Below are positions 2,825 through 19,335 of a DNA stretch of 64,000 nucleotides, piece after piece. Each line of letters opens with the position of its first letter. Position 1 is the first letter of the stretch. A model generated the notes under the pieces. That model was given only the letters and a program-made list of their open reading frames with translations. It did no database searches and was not told where the DNA came from. The position numbers and the translations under genes are program-made. Origin of the DNA: Methylacidimicrobium sp. B4 (lineage in GTDB: Bacteria > Verrucomicrobiota > Verrucomicrobiia > Methylacidiphilales > Methylacidiphilaceae); NCBI RefSeq assembly GCF_017310545.1, contig NZ_CP066203.1:1116001-1180000 (forward strand), given 5' to 3'.

Positions 2825-3598
2825 CTAAATCCGGACGGGGACGCCTTGCGCCCGCAGGAAGCGTTTGACCTCGGGGATCGAGACCTCCCCCGAATGAAAG
2901 ATCCCGGCCGCAAGAGCCGCGTCCGCATGGCCCGAAAGAAAGACCTCGCCGAAATCCTCGATCTTCCCCGCACCTCCGCTGGCGACGACAGGCACGGGAA
3001 GCGCGTCCGCCAGAAGGCGAACGAGTGCCCGATCGTATCCGTTTTTCATCCCGTCGCTGTCGATGCTGTTGCAAACGACTTCTCCGGCCCCCAGCTCGAC
3101 CCCTTTCCGCGCCCAAGCGAGCACCTCCCAGGGGGTCTCGCGTCTGCCTCCGTGGCTGCAGACCTGCCAGGATCCAGGGCCGGTTCTCCGGACATCGATC
3201 GAAAGCACGATGCACTGCGCACCAAAGCGCTCCGCGCCCGCGCGGATCAAGCTGGGATCCGCCAGGGCGGCGGTATTCACGCTCACCTTGTCCGCACCTG
3301 CGAGCAGCATTTCTCGAATATCCTCGAGGGTACGGACTCCGCCTCCCGCCGTCAGCGGAATGAAGCAACGATCCGAAACCGCGCAGAGGACGTCGAGAAG
3401 CGCCGTCCGACCCTCCACGCTCGCCGTGATGTCGTAGAAAACGAGCTCGTCCGCACCTTGGTCGTTGTAACGAGCAGCTAAGGCGATCGGATCTCCGACG
3501 TCCCGCAAGCCCCCTTCCTCGGCCCTTCCAAACTGCTGCCCGCGGGTCACGCGCCCGGAATGAACGTCCAGGCAGGGAATGATCCGCCTAGCCAGCAC
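2825..3598 (-). CDS. hisF: Imidazole glycerol phosphate synthase subunit HisF
   Basis: A 257-residue protein of normal HisF length. It starts at GTG (MLARRIIPCLDV), and the Asp of PCLDV at residue 11 is one catalytic residue. A second lies in the VLSIDVRR strand. Phosphate-binding loops TAGGGVRT and VASGGAGK are intact, as expected for this (beta/alpha)8 barrel. HisF cyclises PRFAR with ammonia supplied by HisH, giving IGP and AICAR for histidine and purine synthesis. The partner hisH and the related hisA are about 32 kb away in this window, so the genes are not in one his operon. It overlaps trmL by 11 bp. Confidence 0.96.
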   Translation of the reverse strand: MLARRIIPCLDVHSGRVTRGQQFGRAEEGGLRDVGDPIALAARYNDQGADELVFYDITASVEGRTALLDVLCAVSDRCFIPLTAGGGVRTLEDIREMLLAGADKVSVNTAALADPSLIRAGAERFGAQCIVLSIDVRRTGPGSWQVCSHGGRRETPWEVLAWARKGVELGAGEVVCNSIDSDGMKNGYDRALVRLLADALPVPVVASGGAGKIEDFGEVFLSGHADAALAAGIFHSGEVSIPEVKRFLRAQGVPVRI

Positions 3599-4082
3599 CG
3601 CCGCTCTCCTTCCCTTCTTCCCGCTCCCCTCCTCTCATCGTGAGCTGCCGAATCGCCTCGTAGAGGACGATCGACACCGCATTTGCCAGGTTCAGGCTCC
3701 GCACCTTCGCGTTTAGGATCGGGATCGTGAACACATGGGTTGGATCTTCCTCCAAGAGCCGCCGGGGCAACCCTCGGCTCTCCTGGCCGAAGAGAAGGAC
3801 ATCGCCGCGCCGGTAGAGCGCCTCCGTATACCGGCGGTAGGGGCCGGTTTCAAAGAAAAGAAGCCGGCGGCCCGCCAAGGCGGCACGAAACTCCTCCCAG
3901 GACTCCCACTGCCGGACGACCGCCTCCGACCAATAGTCGAGCCCCGCCCTCCGCACCGCCTGGTCGCTTAAGGAGAAGGGGAGCGGGCCAATCAGATGGA
4001 GCGTCGAGCGGGTCGCAGCACAGAGTCGGGCGACATTCCCGGTGTTCGGCGGGATCCGGGGTGCGATCAGCCCGATCTCCAA
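3588..4082 (-). CDS. trmL: tRNA (cytidine(34)-2'-O)-methyltransferase TrmL
   Basis: A 164-residue SPOUT-class methyltransferase that 2'-O-methylates the wobble base of certain leucine tRNAs. The N-terminal IPPNTGNVARLCA and the C-terminal knot residues (IPILNAKVRSLNLANAVSIVLYE) are diagnostic. The start chosen is TTG at 4082, giving MEIGLIAPRIPPNTGN. It is preceded by GGAGAA with a 6 bp gap and fits the short N-terminus of the family. A GTG at 4100, overlapping the truA stop as GTGA, would add six residues and is the alternative. The reading frame is open far upstream through truA, but that part is only an alternative-frame shadow. It lies between truA and hisF and is probably co-transcribed with both. 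Confidence 0.9.
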   Translation of the reverse strand: MEIGLIAPRIPPNTGNVARLCAATRSTLHLIGPLPFSLSDQAVRRAGLDYWSEAVVRQWESWEEFRAALAGRRLLFFETGPYRRYTEALYRRGDVLLFGQESRGLPRRLLEEDPTHVFTIPILNAKVRSLNLANAVSIVLYEAIRQLTMRGGEREEGKESGGAG

Positions 4083-4096
4083 AAGAGCTTCTCCGC

Positions 4097-5020
4097 TCAC
4101 TCGTACCTCGATCTCGTCCTCTGGTCTAACCGGGAGCAAGGCCCGCTTGTGCGAGAGTCTTCCGCACGGCGGTTCCGCCTCGCAGGCGCGTACTGAACGC
4201 GGAGAAGATAGAGGCCCCAAGGAGGGGCCGAGGCGGGGGCGCGCTTGCGATCCCGGCTTTCGAGGATCTCCTGGAGCCCGTCCCGCGATAATCGCCCCTT
4301 GCCCACGCGCACCAGCGCTCCGACGATGTTGCGGACCATGTGATAGAGAAAGCCATCGCCCGTGACCCGGATGCGCACGGAAGGCCCACGGCGATGCAGT
4401 GCCAGAGCCGAAATCGTGCGCACCGTCGAAGAATAGGCACGGCCGGGGTTGGTGGCGAAGGAGGAAAAGTCCTTCGTCCCTACAAAGAGATCGCCCGCCT
4501 CCCGCATGGCCGGCAGCGCCAAGGGGAAAGGAACGTGCCAGACCCGGTCCACGAGAAAGGGATCGAGCACCGCGTGGTTCCACACCCGATATTCGTAGGT
4601 CTTGGACCGGGCAGCAAACCGTGCATGAAATTCCGGGGGGGCCAGCTTGACCTCGCGCACCCGGACGGAATCCGGCAAAAAGTAGTTGAGGGCTCGCGCC
4701 AGCTCCTCGGGAATCAGCTTTCTTGGGGCCGCGAAGGAAGCCACCTGCCGCAGGGCATGCACGCCGGCGTCCGTCCGGCTGGCCCCCGTAACCGCGATCG
4801 GCCGACCCCAGATCCGTTCGATGGCTGATTCCAGAGCCTCCTGGATCGACGGCTTCCCCTTTTGCCGCTGCCAACCCGAAAAGGCGCTGCCGACGTAGGA
4901 AAGCTCGATTCGATGACCAATGAGCGGAGATTCCGCCGCCTCCTCGACGGAGGCTGCCCCCCGTTTCCTCATTTCTTCCGCATGCGGCATGGACACTTCA
5001 TAATCCGTAGTCGCACTCAT
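4097..5020 (-). CDS. truA: tRNA pseudouridine(38-40) synthase TruA
   Basis: A 307-residue TruA that isomerises uridines 38-40 in the tRNA anticodon stem. The catalytic Asp is D84 in GASRTDAGVHA. Other family motifs are YVGSAFSGWQRQ near the start and GDGFLYHMVRNIVGAL in the second half. The ATG at 5020 gives about 35 residues before the conserved core, slightly longer than usual. Internal ATGs at 4990 or nearby are possible starts, and none has a strong ribosome-binding site. The C-terminal tail of about 25 residues after LYLLRVQY is basic and not conserved. It is the first gene of the leftward truA-trmL-hisF group. Confidence 0.93.
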   Translation of the reverse strand: MSATTDYEVSMPHAEEMRKRGAASVEEAAESPLIGHRIELSYVGSAFSGWQRQKGKPSIQEALESAIERIWGRPIAVTGASRTDAGVHALRQVASFAAPRKLIPEELARALNYFLPDSVRVREVKLAPPEFHARFAARSKTYEYRVWNHAVLDPFLVDRVWHVPFPLALPAMREAGDLFVGTKDFSSFATNPGRAYSSTVRTISALALHRRGPSVRIRVTGDGFLYHMVRNIVGALVRVGKGRLSRDGLQEILESRDRKRAPASAPPWGLYLLRVQYAPARRNRRAEDSRTSGPCSRLDQRTRSRYE

Positions 5021-15205: not shown

Positions 15206-16048
15206 ATGAGACGCACTGCTGACTCGAATCGATCCTCGCGCTGGTCCCGCTCGAGTGCCAAAGCCGCCTTGGCCCTGGCCGGTGCCTTTTGGCTCTTCGC
15301 ACTGATTTCGCCTGCCCGCTCAACACCCGATCCCGCCAAACCCGGCCCGCCGATCGAATTTCTGCAGGGGCGCTTCTGGAAGAACTTCCGCCTCCAGGAC
15401 TTCGCTCTGCACGGGGTGATCGAGTCGGAGCGGGAGAGTTACCCGATCCAGCTCATCCTTCACGACCGCAAGATGATTTACGATTTTGAGAATCCCCCGT
15501 TCCAGATTCGCGTCGAGATTCAGCCGGAGCAAAGCATCGTCGAGCGGCGCAGACAGAAGCGGGAGCCCTGGCAACCCGTTTCCGGCCGGGCACGGATGAG
15601 CCCGATTCTTGACACCGATATCACCTATGAGGATCTCTGCCTCGACTTCATGCGGTGGGAACGGATCCGCCCTCTGGGGACCGATCATATCAAGACGTTG
15701 ACCGCCTGGGCCTTCGATGCCGTTCCGCCTCCGGGCACGAGCGCCTATACCAAGGTGCGCTACTGGATCGCCGCGGAGTATTACGCGCTCTTGCGAGCCG
15801 ACGGGTACAACGGGGCGGGCGAGCTGATCAAACGCCTGGAAGTCAACGGCGTCCAGAGGATCGGGGAAGCCTATGTGATCAAGGAAATGCAGGTTTCCTC
15901 CTTCGACCCGAAGAAGGAGAGCTCCTCGCGCACGTTGATCAACATTCGCCGCGGAGAAGCGCTTCCCCCGGAAGCGCGCACCGTACCCTCGGGCACCGGA
16001 GCCCGCTGTCCCCGCACACCCGGCTTGGCCTCCCACCTAGGAAACTAA
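15206..16048 (+). CDS. LolA-like outer-membrane lipoprotein-sorting domain protein
   Basis: A 280-residue exported protein. The leader (residues about 20-40, AALALAGAFWLFALISPARS) is followed by a region of long beta strands such as FRLQDFALHGVIESE, YPIQLILHDRKMIYDF and PFQIRVEIQPEQS. The middle has YVIKEMQVSSFDPKKESSSRTLINI, the kind of strand-rich end seen in outer membrane lipoprotein-sorting (LolA/LppX-fold) proteins. I infer a periplasmic lipid or lipoprotein carrier, but no catalytic residues are expected or seen. Start ATG 15206 is chosen for the leader. The C-terminal tail overlaps the end of convergent glmM by 12 bp. Confidence 0.6.
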   Translation: MRRTADSNRSSRWSRSSAKAALALAGAFWLFALISPARSTPDPAKPGPPIEFLQGRFWKNFRLQDFALHGVIESERESYPIQLILHDRKMIYDFENPPFQIRVEIQPEQSIVERRRQKREPWQPVSGRARMSPILDTDITYEDLCLDFMRWERIRPLGTDHIKTLTAWAFDAVPPPGTSAYTKVRYWIAAEYYALLRADGYNGAGELIKRLEVNGVQRIGEAYVIKEMQVSSFDPKKESSSRTLINIRRGEALPPEARTVPSGTGARCPRTPGLASHLGN

Positions 16049-17407
16049 AATTTCCTCGCGACGGAGGGCGAGAAGCAGCCGCTCTTCCCACTTTTCCAAG
16101 ACGTCCGGCTCGGGCCCCTCGATCAGGAGACGGATCTTCGGTTCGGTTCCGGAATAGCGGAGAAGGATTCGTCCCTGCGCTCCCAAGGCACGCTCGGCCT
16201 CGTCGACCGTCTCTGCCACCCTCGGCATGTTCTCGAGCGGCCTCTTCTCGCGGACCACCCAGTTGACCTGCCGCTGAGGATATTTCCGCAAGCAGCGGCG
16301 GAGCTCCGCAAGCGGGCTGCCCGTGGTCGAGACGATCCGGAGAATTTCGAGCCCCGCGCGCAGTCCGTCGGCGCTCGAAGCCTGGTCCAGGAGCAAAATA
16401 TGCCCCGATTGCTCTCCGCCGAGATTGAGCCCGCGGGCGCGCATGGCCGCCGCGACATGCCGATCCCCAACCGGTGTTCGCACGACCCGGATCCCGACCT
16501 CCTGCAGCATCCGATCGAGCCCAAGATTGCTCATGACCGTAGCCGCCACCGTCTCATGGGCAAGAACCTGCCGGCGATGATAGTCGAGAGCCAGGATGGC
16601 CAAGAGGTCGTCGCCGTCGAGAACTTCGCCCTCATGGTCGCAACAGAGCAGCCGATCTCCGTCCCCATCGAGGGCCAAGCCGAGGTCCGCGTCGGCCATC
16701 CGGACGAGCCCGGAGAGTTTTTCCGGATGCATGCTGCCGCAATCGAGATTGATGTTGATCCCGTTGGGGCTCGCGGAGAAGACAAACGGCTTCCCTCCCA
16801 GGCGGGCGAAGAGCGGGGCAACCAAGTGCGACGCGGCTCCGTTGGCCCCGTCGACGACGATCCGAAGCCGGGAAATATCTCCGCCAGCCGGCCAATGGCG
16901 CTGCAGTGAATCGAGGTAGAGATCCCGGGCCTGCGGAAGGGGCTCGAGCCGCCCCACCCGCGAACCGGCGGGCCCCTGAAAAGAAAGCCAGGGATAATCG
17001 GAAAGCCGGCAGGCAATCTCCCGCTCGACCTCTTCCGGAAGCTTGGCCCCGTCGGGGCCAAAAAGCTTGATCCCGTTGTCCGGAAACGGGTTGTGCGAGG
17101 CGCTGATCATGACCCCCCCCGCAGCTCCGAGGGACCGGGCTAGATCGCCCACCGCTGGAGTGGGCAGCACGCCCAGACAGACCGCATCCACGCCGGCGGA
17201 AAGAATCCCCGAGACCAGGGCCGATTCGAGCATCTCGCTCGAAATTCGTGGGTCGCGCCCGACGACGATCTTTCTTTTTTCCCCTGCTGCCAGAAAGGAG
17301 GCGGCGATCGCTCCCACCGCGACGGCAACCGTCGGGGTCAGCGGATGACGATTCGCCCTTCCCCGAATGCCGTCGGTTCCAAACAGTGGCTGCGTTGGTT
17401 GCCTCAT
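16037..17407 (-). CDS. glmM: Phosphoglucosamine mutase GlmM
   Basis: A 456-residue GlmM converting glucosamine-6-P to glucosamine-1-P for UDP-GlcNAc, hence peptidoglycan and LPS. N-terminal LFGTDGIRGRAN is diagnostic, and the phosphoserine loop is GVMISASHNPFPDNGIK. The metal-binding site is DGDGDRLLCCD, and the C-terminal phosphate loop is LRYSGTEPKIR. It stands at the end of polX-folP-cdaA-(micro-ORF)-glmM. CdaA/GlmM pairing is known in other phyla, where CdaR and GlmM bind and restrain the cyclase. Here the cdaR position is taken by a 45-codon ORF. Confidence 0.97.
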   Translation of the reverse strand: MRQPTQPLFGTDGIRGRANRHPLTPTVAVAVGAIAASFLAAGEKRKIVVGRDPRISSEMLESALVSGILSAGVDAVCLGVLPTPAVGDLARSLGAAGGVMISASHNPFPDNGIKLFGPDGAKLPEEVEREIACRLSDYPWLSFQGPAGSRVGRLEPLPQARDLYLDSLQRHWPAGGDISRLRIVVDGANGAASHLVAPLFARLGGKPFVFSASPNGININLDCGSMHPEKLSGLVRMADADLGLALDGDGDRLLCCDHEGEVLDGDDLLAILALDYHRRQVLAHETVAATVMSNLGLDRMLQEVGIRVVRTPVGDRHVAAAMRARGLNLGGEQSGHILLLDQASSADGLRAGLEILRIVSTTGSPLAELRRCLRKYPQRQVNWVVREKRPLENMPRVAETVDEAERALGAQGRILLRYSGTEPKIRLLIEGPEPDVLEKWEERLLLALRREEILVS

Positions 17408-17421
17408 CCGCTGCTCCCGGG

Positions 17422-17559
17422 CTACTTTGCCAAGCCTAGCGAGGAGAGAATCTGGTCGATCGAACCGGGTTCAATCGATTCTCGGAGAATCGCCCACACG
17501 GCGATCGCAAGAACCAGAGAAATCACCTTCTGTTTCCAATTCTCCAGCAGCCGGCTCAT
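17422..17559 (-). CDS. 45-residue membrane protein in the cdaR position (possible reduced CdaR/YbbR)
   Basis: This small ORF runs from ATG 17559 to TAG at 17422, between cdaA and glmM on the same strand. The ATG follows GGGGA with a 7 bp gap. The product begins MSRLLENWKQKVISLVLAIA and has one hydrophobic helix (about residues 11-26), then an acidic or neutral tail ending SSLGLAK. The start resembles the N-terminal membrane anchor of CdaR/YbbR, where a (W)xxK(I/V)IxLxLA helix precedes periplasmic YbbR domains. Those domains are missing. It may be a minimal CdaR that keeps only the membrane contact with CdaA, a remnant, or an unrelated peptide. Its coding status is inferred from position, ribosome-binding site and helix; codon bias was not tested. 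Confidence 0.65.
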   Translation of the reverse strand: MSRLLENWKQKVISLVLAIAVWAILRESIEPGSIDQILSSLGLAK

Positions 17560-17592
17560 GGCCAAGTCCCCATCTGCTCGCGCATTGTCTGG

Positions 17593-18336
17593 CTAAATCA
17601 GGATCTCCGTCAACCGTGCACGCAGGCGGTCCGGGTCGAAGTGTCGCTCCAGCTTTCCCTCGAGCGCAATGGAGATGACGCCCGTCTCCTCCGAGACCAC
17701 GACGACCACAGCGTCGGTCATCTCGCTCAAGCCCAAGGCCGCCCGATGGCGCAGACCCAGTGGCCGTTCGAGCCGCTCGGTTTCGCTCAGCGGGAAGACC
17801 GCCGCCGCCACAACCAGGCGATTGTCCCGGATCACCGCCCCTCCGTCATGAAGGGGCGTGCGCGGGTAGAAGGTCGTCACAAGGAGGTCTGCGCTCAGCT
17901 TGGCGTCCAGAAGGGTCCCCGTGTCGCGGGCGGGACGGTAGAGATCTTCCCGCTCCAGGGAGATGAGCGCTCCAAACCGCTCGCGCTGGCAAATTTCGGC
18001 CGCATTGACGATGTGCTCGATCACCTCCGCTTGCTGCTGCCTGCCGGAGGTGGTCACGCTCCGGCGCCCCACTTCCGCGAGCACCTGACGGAGCTCAGGC
18101 TGAAAGAGCACGACCAGCGCCACAAAGAAGGACGGAGAAAAGAGCCGGATGAGCTCGGTGACCACCCGCAAGTGGAGAACGGCGGAGAAGAGGGTGAGGA
18201 CCACGAGCACGATCAGCAGTCCGGTCAGCACCTGCACCCCGCGCGTCCCCTGGAGGAGCTTCCAGACCTGATAGATGACGATGGCGATGATCAGGATCTC
18301 TACCGTCCAGGAGAGAGGCTGACCGAGAGCCTTCAC
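17593..18336 (-). CDS. cdaA: Diadenylate cyclase CdaA (DisA_N domain)
   Basis: A 247-residue membrane-bound cyclase that makes cyclic di-AMP from two ATP. Three N-terminal hydrophobic helices (about residues 12-75) are followed by the DisA_N domain. Catalytic motifs are the DGG loop at 164-166 in TPLHDGGAV and RHRAA at 197-201. Starts at GTG 18336, overlapping the folP stop as GTGA. Cyclic di-AMP controls potassium and osmolyte balance and wall stress in other bacteria. The order folP-cdaA-x-glmM is close to the well-known cdaA-cdaR-glmM layout except that the middle gene is tiny. Confidence 0.95.
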   Translation of the reverse strand: MKALGQPLSWTVEILIIAIVIYQVWKLLQGTRGVQVLTGLLIVLVVLTLFSAVLHLRVVTELIRLFSPSFFVALVVLFQPELRQVLAEVGRRSVTTSGRQQQAEVIEHIVNAAEICQRERFGALISLEREDLYRPARDTGTLLDAKLSADLLVTTFYPRTPLHDGGAVIRDNRLVVAAAVFPLSETERLERPLGLRHRAALGLSEMTDAVVVVVSEETGVISIALEGKLERHFDPDRLRARLTEILI

Positions 18337-19160
18337 GGGAGATCTCCCTCCAGGGCGGTGAAAATCCCCCGGGCGGCGACGGCCCGGTCCACGTCATGCA
18401 CGCGCCAAACCGCGGCACCACGACTCGAGGCGAGAATCGCCGCCGCGAGGCTTGCCGCATCCTGGCCTTTCTCGCCGACCAGCTCCCGAAGAAAGCTCTT
18501 CCGGGAAACTCCCACCAGCAGCGGCCGTCCTATCTCGGCGAACAGGCAGAGATCACGAAGCAACCGCCGGTTCTGCTCCCCCGTCTTGGCAAAGCCAAAG
18601 CCGACGTCGCAAAGGATCCGTTCCCTGGGGATGCCGGCTTCGATGGCCTGGGCCAAGCGGGCCATCAGCTCATCCTTGACCTCGCGGACGACGTCGCCGT
18701 AAACGGCATCCGCCCGCATCGTCTTGGGCATTCCCCGGGAGTGGACCAGAACATAGCCGGCACCCGACTCCTTCACCGCCTCCCAGACTCCGGTGTCCCA
18801 TTTGCCGCCCGACACATCGTTGATGATCTCGGCCCCTTCCGAAAGGGCCGCCCGGGCCACACCGCCCTTGTAGGTATCGACAGAGATCGGGATTGCGAGC
18901 CGCCCAGCGACCTTGCGCAAGGCGGGGAGGAGCCGGCGCAGCTCCTCCCTCTCCGAGACGGGATCCGCCCCGGGCCGCGTCGACTCGGCGCCGAAATCCA
19001 CCAGATCGATCCCGAGTTGCTCCATGCGCAGGGCTTCATCCACCACCTCCCGCACGGAGAGCAGCCGGCCCCCGTCGGAAAACGAATCGGGGGTCAGGTT
19101 GATGATCCCCATGATGGACGGCCTTTGCGAGGAGAGCTCGATCGACCGGAGGGAAGTCAC
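18333..19160 (-). CDS. folP: Dihydropteroate synthase
   Basis: A 275-residue FolP condensing 6-hydroxymethyl-dihydropterin diphosphate with p-aminobenzoate on the folate route. Motifs are SIMGIINLTPDSFSDGG, DFGAESTRPGA, PISVDTYK and GVSRKSFL, and all are intact. GTG 19160 gives the usual length and about 16 residues before MGIIN. The frame is open to another GTG at 19331, only 4 bp after the polX stop, which would add 57 poorly conserved residues. That start may be used by translational coupling, so the exact start is uncertain. The gene overlaps cdaA by 4 bp. Confidence 0.93.
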   Translation of the reverse strand: MTSLRSIELSSQRPSIMGIINLTPDSFSDGGRLLSVREVVDEALRMEQLGIDLVDFGAESTRPGADPVSEREELRRLLPALRKVAGRLAIPISVDTYKGGVARAALSEGAEIINDVSGGKWDTGVWEAVKESGAGYVLVHSRGMPKTMRADAVYGDVVREVKDELMARLAQAIEAGIPRERILCDVGFGFAKTGEQNRRLLRDLCLFAEIGRPLLVGVSRKSFLRELVGEKGQDAASLAAAILASSRGAAVWRVHDVDRAVAARGIFTALEGDLP

Positions 19161-19335
19161 CCATCGCGCAGCCGTGGGCGGCGTCGTTACTCCCTTCCCG
19201 CTGGGGACCGCTCCCGCTGCGAAGGCACGCGAATCGGAAATGAGGGAGACCGCGCGACCCGGGGGTCGACCGGTTGCTGCCTGCGTTCCAGGAGCGGAGG
19301 GGGACGATTTTCTGGAAGCGAAGATCTCCACTCCG

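Follow-up and report, generated by a model that had tools for sequence, protein, structure and literature searches.

A CdaR-derived micro-protein lacking YbbR domains is encoded between cdaA and glmM in Methylacidimicrobium and many of its relatives

A 45-codon open reading frame (ORF) between cdaA and glmM in Methylacidimicrobium sp. B4 is a real gene under strong purifying selection. In bacteria that produce the signal molecule c-di-AMP, this place is normally taken by the gene for the large regulator CdaR. Our best reading is that the gene represents an old and stable reduction of CdaR to an anchor that would contact CdaA, and not a gene in decay. We consider it probable that the product, here called micro-CdaR, is what was left of CdaR after loss of the YbbR domains, and that it packs on the membrane domain of CdaA and affects the cyclase.

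The window, meaning the whole 64 000 nucleotide stretch of DNA that was analysed, comes from a genome of 2.37 Mb in one contig. The ORF that a preliminary description had reported between cdaA and glmM was confirmed there on the minus strand, in the tight order folP-cdaA-ORF-glmM with gaps of -4, 33 and 14 nt, the last two running from the cdaA stop to the ORF start and from the ORF stop to the glmM ATG, respectively. The features of the locus are:

16037-17407, minus strand: glmM, phosphoglucosamine mutase (TIGR01455, 499 bits)
17422-17559, minus strand: micro-CdaR gene, 45 codons and a TAG stop (ORF, conservation, pN/pS 0.10, profile match)
17425-17475, minus strand: tail IEPGSIDQILSSLGLAK, codons 29-45 (alignment; EPGxxDQxL conserved in its own order only)
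17473-17538, minus strand: conserved anchor segment W-x-x-K ... A-x-x-x-W, codons 8-29 (alignment; 100-degree periodicity)
17567-17571, minus strand: Shine-Dalgarno-like GGGGA, 7 nt upstream of the ATG (sequence)
17593-18336, minus strand: cdaA, diadenylate cyclase (PF19293, 39.5 bits; PF02457, 117.7 bits; TIGR00159, 207.7 bits against a cut-off of 188.8 bits)
18333-19331, minus strand: folP, dihydropteroate synthase (TIGR01496; 4-nt overlap with the cdaA start)

The ORF begins with ATG (17559-17557) and ends with TAG (17424-17422), both on the minus strand, and its 45 aa product is MSRLLENWKQKVISLVLAIAVWAILRESIEPGSIDQILSSLGLAK. An alternative TTG start at 17565 would add two residues. A good ribosome-binding site had been claimed earlier; the Shine-Dalgarno-like GGGGA lies 7 nt upstream of the ATG, and most congeners have a comparable purine-rich run ahead of their start codon. 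Codons 8-29 are predicted to form a membrane helix, with the N-terminus cytoplasmic by analogy with CdaR. CdaA consists of an N-terminal membrane domain (CdaA_N, PF19293) and a DAC domain (PF02457), and its gene is the only one in the genome to encode a DAC domain. No match to the 45 aa peptide was obtained with the Pfam and NCBIfam models.

The preliminary description had made its proposal depend on conservation of the peptide in relatives, and each of the other 12 genomes in the family encodes it. Identity was 87-100% in all six other congeneric genomes and about 60-67% in the six non-congeneric ones. The peptide is also encoded in many further genomes of the order, nearly always adjoining cdaA, glmM or both, and the reading frame was intact in every relative examined. 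The check on selection proposed in the same description gave a mean pN/pS of 0.10 across the seven genomes of the genus, and the value in Methylacidiphilum was 0.07; pS reached 0.7-0.8, and synonymous sites were near saturation in some of the genome pairs compared. The other two forward frames of the region contained stops and had pN/pS above 1. The low pN/pS and the retained frame, together with the stops in the other frames, exclude a chance ORF and a pseudogene.

The relationship to CdaR was examined with profiles. A profile built from the YbbR-bearing CdaRs of the class had one match in the genome, which was this ORF (E 3.1e-4, model positions 6-36 of 138), and in the reverse search the micro-CdaR profile matched the N-termini of YbbR-bearing CdaRs. 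Because this single genome-wide match falls over the anchor columns, the ORF is, on profile evidence, homologous to the N-terminal anchor of CdaR. As in the CdaR family, it follows cdaA, precedes glmM and has a single N-terminal anchor. PF07949, which was matched in 15 of the 18 longer, YbbR-bearing CdaRs of the class, revealed no YbbR domain in the peptide or in the whole genome, nor did a search of the whole genome with the class-specific CdaR profile reveal one elsewhere. The earlier view that only the anchor-like helix of CdaR is left here therefore holds, and a complete cdaR elsewhere in the genome, which would have spoken against it, was not found with either the Pfam model or the class profile. 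Since the peptide lacks a YbbR domain, we name it a CdaR-derived micro-CdaR; judged from its sequence it is that and not a canonical YbbR protein.

In gene order and in its single N-terminal membrane helix, micro-CdaR resembles the CdaR (YbbR) of Firmicutes, whose gene stands second in the cdaA-cdaR-glmM operon. Three or four extra-membrane YbbR domains are present in the known CdaR of lactic acid bacteria (PMC10243994) and none in micro-CdaR. Within the class, the CdaRs that still carry YbbR are 129-230 aa long, with one or two domains; they share the place after cdaA and the conserved anchor columns with micro-CdaR but, unlike it, keep PF07949 domains. In the open-access papers searched we came across no description of a small CdaR or of one lacking YbbR; the CdaR family is already known, and the YbbR-less form appears to be new.

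The survey covered 180 cdaA loci, all from one bacterial class. A separate micro-CdaR of about 45-110 aa without YbbR was found just downstream of cdaA in 125 of them; in 46 the CdaR had one or two YbbR domains. Six loci, all from one family (f4) of the order of Methylacidimicrobium, had a CdaA with its own C-terminal hydrophobic helix, and a clear in-frame fusion of CdaA to the helix was found once. The remaining two loci, in two genomes of one genus (g56), keep cdaA with no adjoining micro-CdaR gene, which means that the helix next to cdaA can be lost. In the sister classes of the phylum the YbbR proteins are longer, with open frames of mostly about 320-360 aa. The first phylum sample had suggested that the whole class was without YbbR, which was wrong, as one or two domains occur in other families of the class. 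In two families (f11 and f13) glmM is not nearby and the helix stays with cdaA. In Methylacidiphilum the micro-CdaR gene lies directly before glmM, with cdaA up to 1.25 kb off; in Methylacidiphilum sp. Yel, cdaA is separated by some 1.25 kb with no clear gene (3020-4272 of locus L193) from the micro-CdaR gene, which stays with glmM. About 60 genomes of the class without a CdaA-grade cyclase gave few matches to the micro-CdaR profile, all marginal and above E 0.004. In families f10, f12, f16, f17, f19 and f70 the CdaA-model matches were mostly weak and micro-CdaR was mostly absent, and these families may use another cyclase or none. The gene, conserved across the class, is missed by the Pfam and NCBIfam models and is probably unannotated in many genomes.

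In the one clear fusion (locus L164, genome G270) the CdaA ORF is 329 aa long and the helix occupies residues 284-312, scoring 24.7 bits with an order-only profile. It is a natural in-frame fusion of CdaA to the YbbR-less CdaR helix. CdaA-CdaR fusions occur naturally in streptococci (PMC10243994), and L164 is their counterpart in that the CdaR helix is likewise in cis with CdaA; the streptococcal proteins are described as CdaA plus CdaR, whereas L164 joins CdaA to a helix without YbbR. The CdaA of family f4 (L091, L096, L104, L209, L212 and L215) has an additional hydrophobic helix at its C-terminus (ICLGLAVIAWG...), and its gene is not followed by a separate micro-CdaR gene. This helix scored a weak 6.9 bits with the profile, a value reached by 1 of 2000 shuffled tails, and that it is a second, degenerate fusion of the same helix is only a suggestion. 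Overlap between the micro-CdaR frame and the 3' end of cdaA was seen in 64 of 77 micro-CdaR loci; it extends up to about 150 nt and is nearly always in the +1 phase, so that one stretch of DNA encodes both the tail of CdaA and the membrane helix. There is no such overlap in Methylacidimicrobium. Readthrough of the cdaA stop into the micro-CdaR gene, which is in frame in most Methylacidimicrobium, was considered and dropped, as one congener has the micro-CdaR gene in another frame.

An alignment of 107 micro and 36 YbbR-bearing proteins, with K11 and W22 (absent from just one protein per set) as alignment anchors, showed the same conserved columns in both sets, namely N7, K11, S/C14, L15, L17, A18, W22 and I/V25. 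These lie on one face of a helix with a 100-degree period (p 0.005-0.009 in the micro set, 0.02-0.03 in the YbbR-bearing set). The tail after the helix, with its EPGxxDQxL motif conserved inside the order, is variable outside it. Contact with CdaA was examined by pairing helix sequences with those of CdaA and applying a mean-field coupling analysis, with 54 newly fetched sequences as a second set. CdaA position 21 and helix position 14 formed the highest-scoring CdaA-helix pair of the first set (z 7.0); this pair came third in the new set (z 5.7) and first in the combined set (z 8.5). Several further coupled pairs followed an antiparallel line joining TM1 of CdaA to the helix. Cys at helix position 14 pairs with Leu or Phe at CdaA position 21 in about ten families; in a phylogeny-aware sign test of this pair the independent pairs nearly all went in the same direction and were too few (median p 0.125). 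The antiparallel TM1-helix band ranked first of 452 in the first set and third to fifth in the combined set, and the new set by itself placed it no higher than ninth. At its fixed, expected place the band measured 1.43-1.54 against at most 1.22 in 20 shuffles, though the best band anywhere in the shuffled pairings reached a similar 1.4-1.9 and the covariation is weak as a whole. An AlphaFold2 model of CdaA joined to micro-CdaR (cdaA stop as Q, 12-residue linker) had a mean pLDDT of 37.7 with only seven near-identical rows and was discarded. Taken together, the covariation is suggestive of an antiparallel contact between the helix and CdaA TM1. This agrees with the literature, since the CdaR-CdaA interaction runs through the membrane domains, streptococcal fusions exist and models point to CdaA TM1 (PMC10243994); in Listeria the N-terminal membrane region of CdaA makes the contact (PMC8573169).

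In the mechanism we propose, CdaR would have lost all of its extracytoplasmic YbbR domains, leaving micro-CdaR as a single-pass membrane peptide with a short cytoplasmic start, a helix and a short outer tail. The face formed by K11, S/C14, L15, L17, A18, W22 and I25 would pack against the CdaA membrane domain, most likely with the helix antiparallel to TM1, and this packing would affect the assembly or the activity of the cyclase, on which GlmM could act from the cytoplasmic side. The conserved face, the natural fusion and the suggestive TM1 covariation favour the earlier suggestion that the membrane helix suffices for contact with CdaA; the binding itself, like translation, the orientation of the peptide, the place of contact on TM1 and any effect on c-di-AMP synthesis, we infer. 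How CdaR regulates CdaA has been stated to be unclear (PMC8573169), and its effects have been reported with opposite signs, activation or repression, in different species (PMC8573169, PMC9259658, PMC11520302), so neither activation nor repression by micro-CdaR is predicted here. Our comparisons suggest that the part of CdaR acting on CdaA can be a single membrane helix. We give even weight to a broader proposal, that this function would lie wholly in the membrane helix, that a one-helix CdaA subunit has replaced the sensor-like CdaR in most of the class, and that YbbR is an optional input module lost several times.

Of the other explanations, the one with most to be said for it is that the CdaR-derived anchor now serves a partner other than CdaA, for example by recruiting GlmM to the membrane or by serving a cell-wall enzyme. 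The arrangement in Methylacidiphilum, where the gene stays directly before glmM and cdaA can lie farther off, would fit this, but the two families that keep the helix with cdaA away from glmM, the fusion in L164 and the covariation with CdaA position 21 all point to CdaA, and we regard another partner as unlikely. The tight spacing and the frequent overlap with cdaA would also be expected of a short coupling or leader ORF through which ribosomes pass from cdaA to glmM and which matters for translation, not as a protein. Such coupling would not require the peptide sequence, whereas the amino acids of one helix face are conserved even where glmM is not nearby, and again in the fusion with CdaA, which makes this account still less probable. 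A new helix of independent origin that resembles the CdaR anchor by chance, or through overprinting of the 3' end of cdaA, might be suspected from the +1 overlap seen in many families. We find this very hard to credit, given the same position and conserved columns as in the YbbR-bearing CdaRs of the class, the lack of overlap in Methylacidimicrobium itself and the single genome-wide match of the YbbR-bearing profile.

Equally improbable is a decaying remnant, in which CdaR is being lost and the 45 codons are the functionless tail of a pseudogene. The absence of YbbR domains from the genome and the two genomes of genus g56 could be taken in its favour, but pN/pS is 0.07-0.10 (some pairs being close to synonymous saturation), the frame is intact throughout, and the micro, fused and empty forms span a whole clade of the CdaA tree. 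This clade of 64 rows (SH-aLRT 96) contains the order of Methylacidimicrobium together with the majority of the remaining micro, fused and empty loci, and has no YbbR-bearing member; three more micro groups fall outside it, and at least four changes between the micro and YbbR-bearing states are required. The tree alone is silent on loss versus gain, and loss of YbbR is the simpler reading because the CdaRs of the sister classes are longer. The data support loss of the YbbR domains at the base of the large clade and retention of the anchor since then, bar a few later losses or fusions, so the earlier alternative that this lineage is losing CdaR finds no support as it was put. Old reduction to a retained anchor also provides a natural domain-deletion series, from the longer CdaR of the sister classes, through forms with one or two YbbR domains in some of the class and without any in most of it, to a helix fused to CdaA. 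Contact and sensing parts are thereby separated, and the series offers small expressible proteins with which to test which of them alters cyclase activity. One locus (L015, genome G044) combines a cdaA that is only 44% identical to that of the window and groups on the tree with YbbR-bearing families with an adjoining micro-CdaR typical of the order of Methylacidimicrobium, and cdaA was possibly replaced in place.
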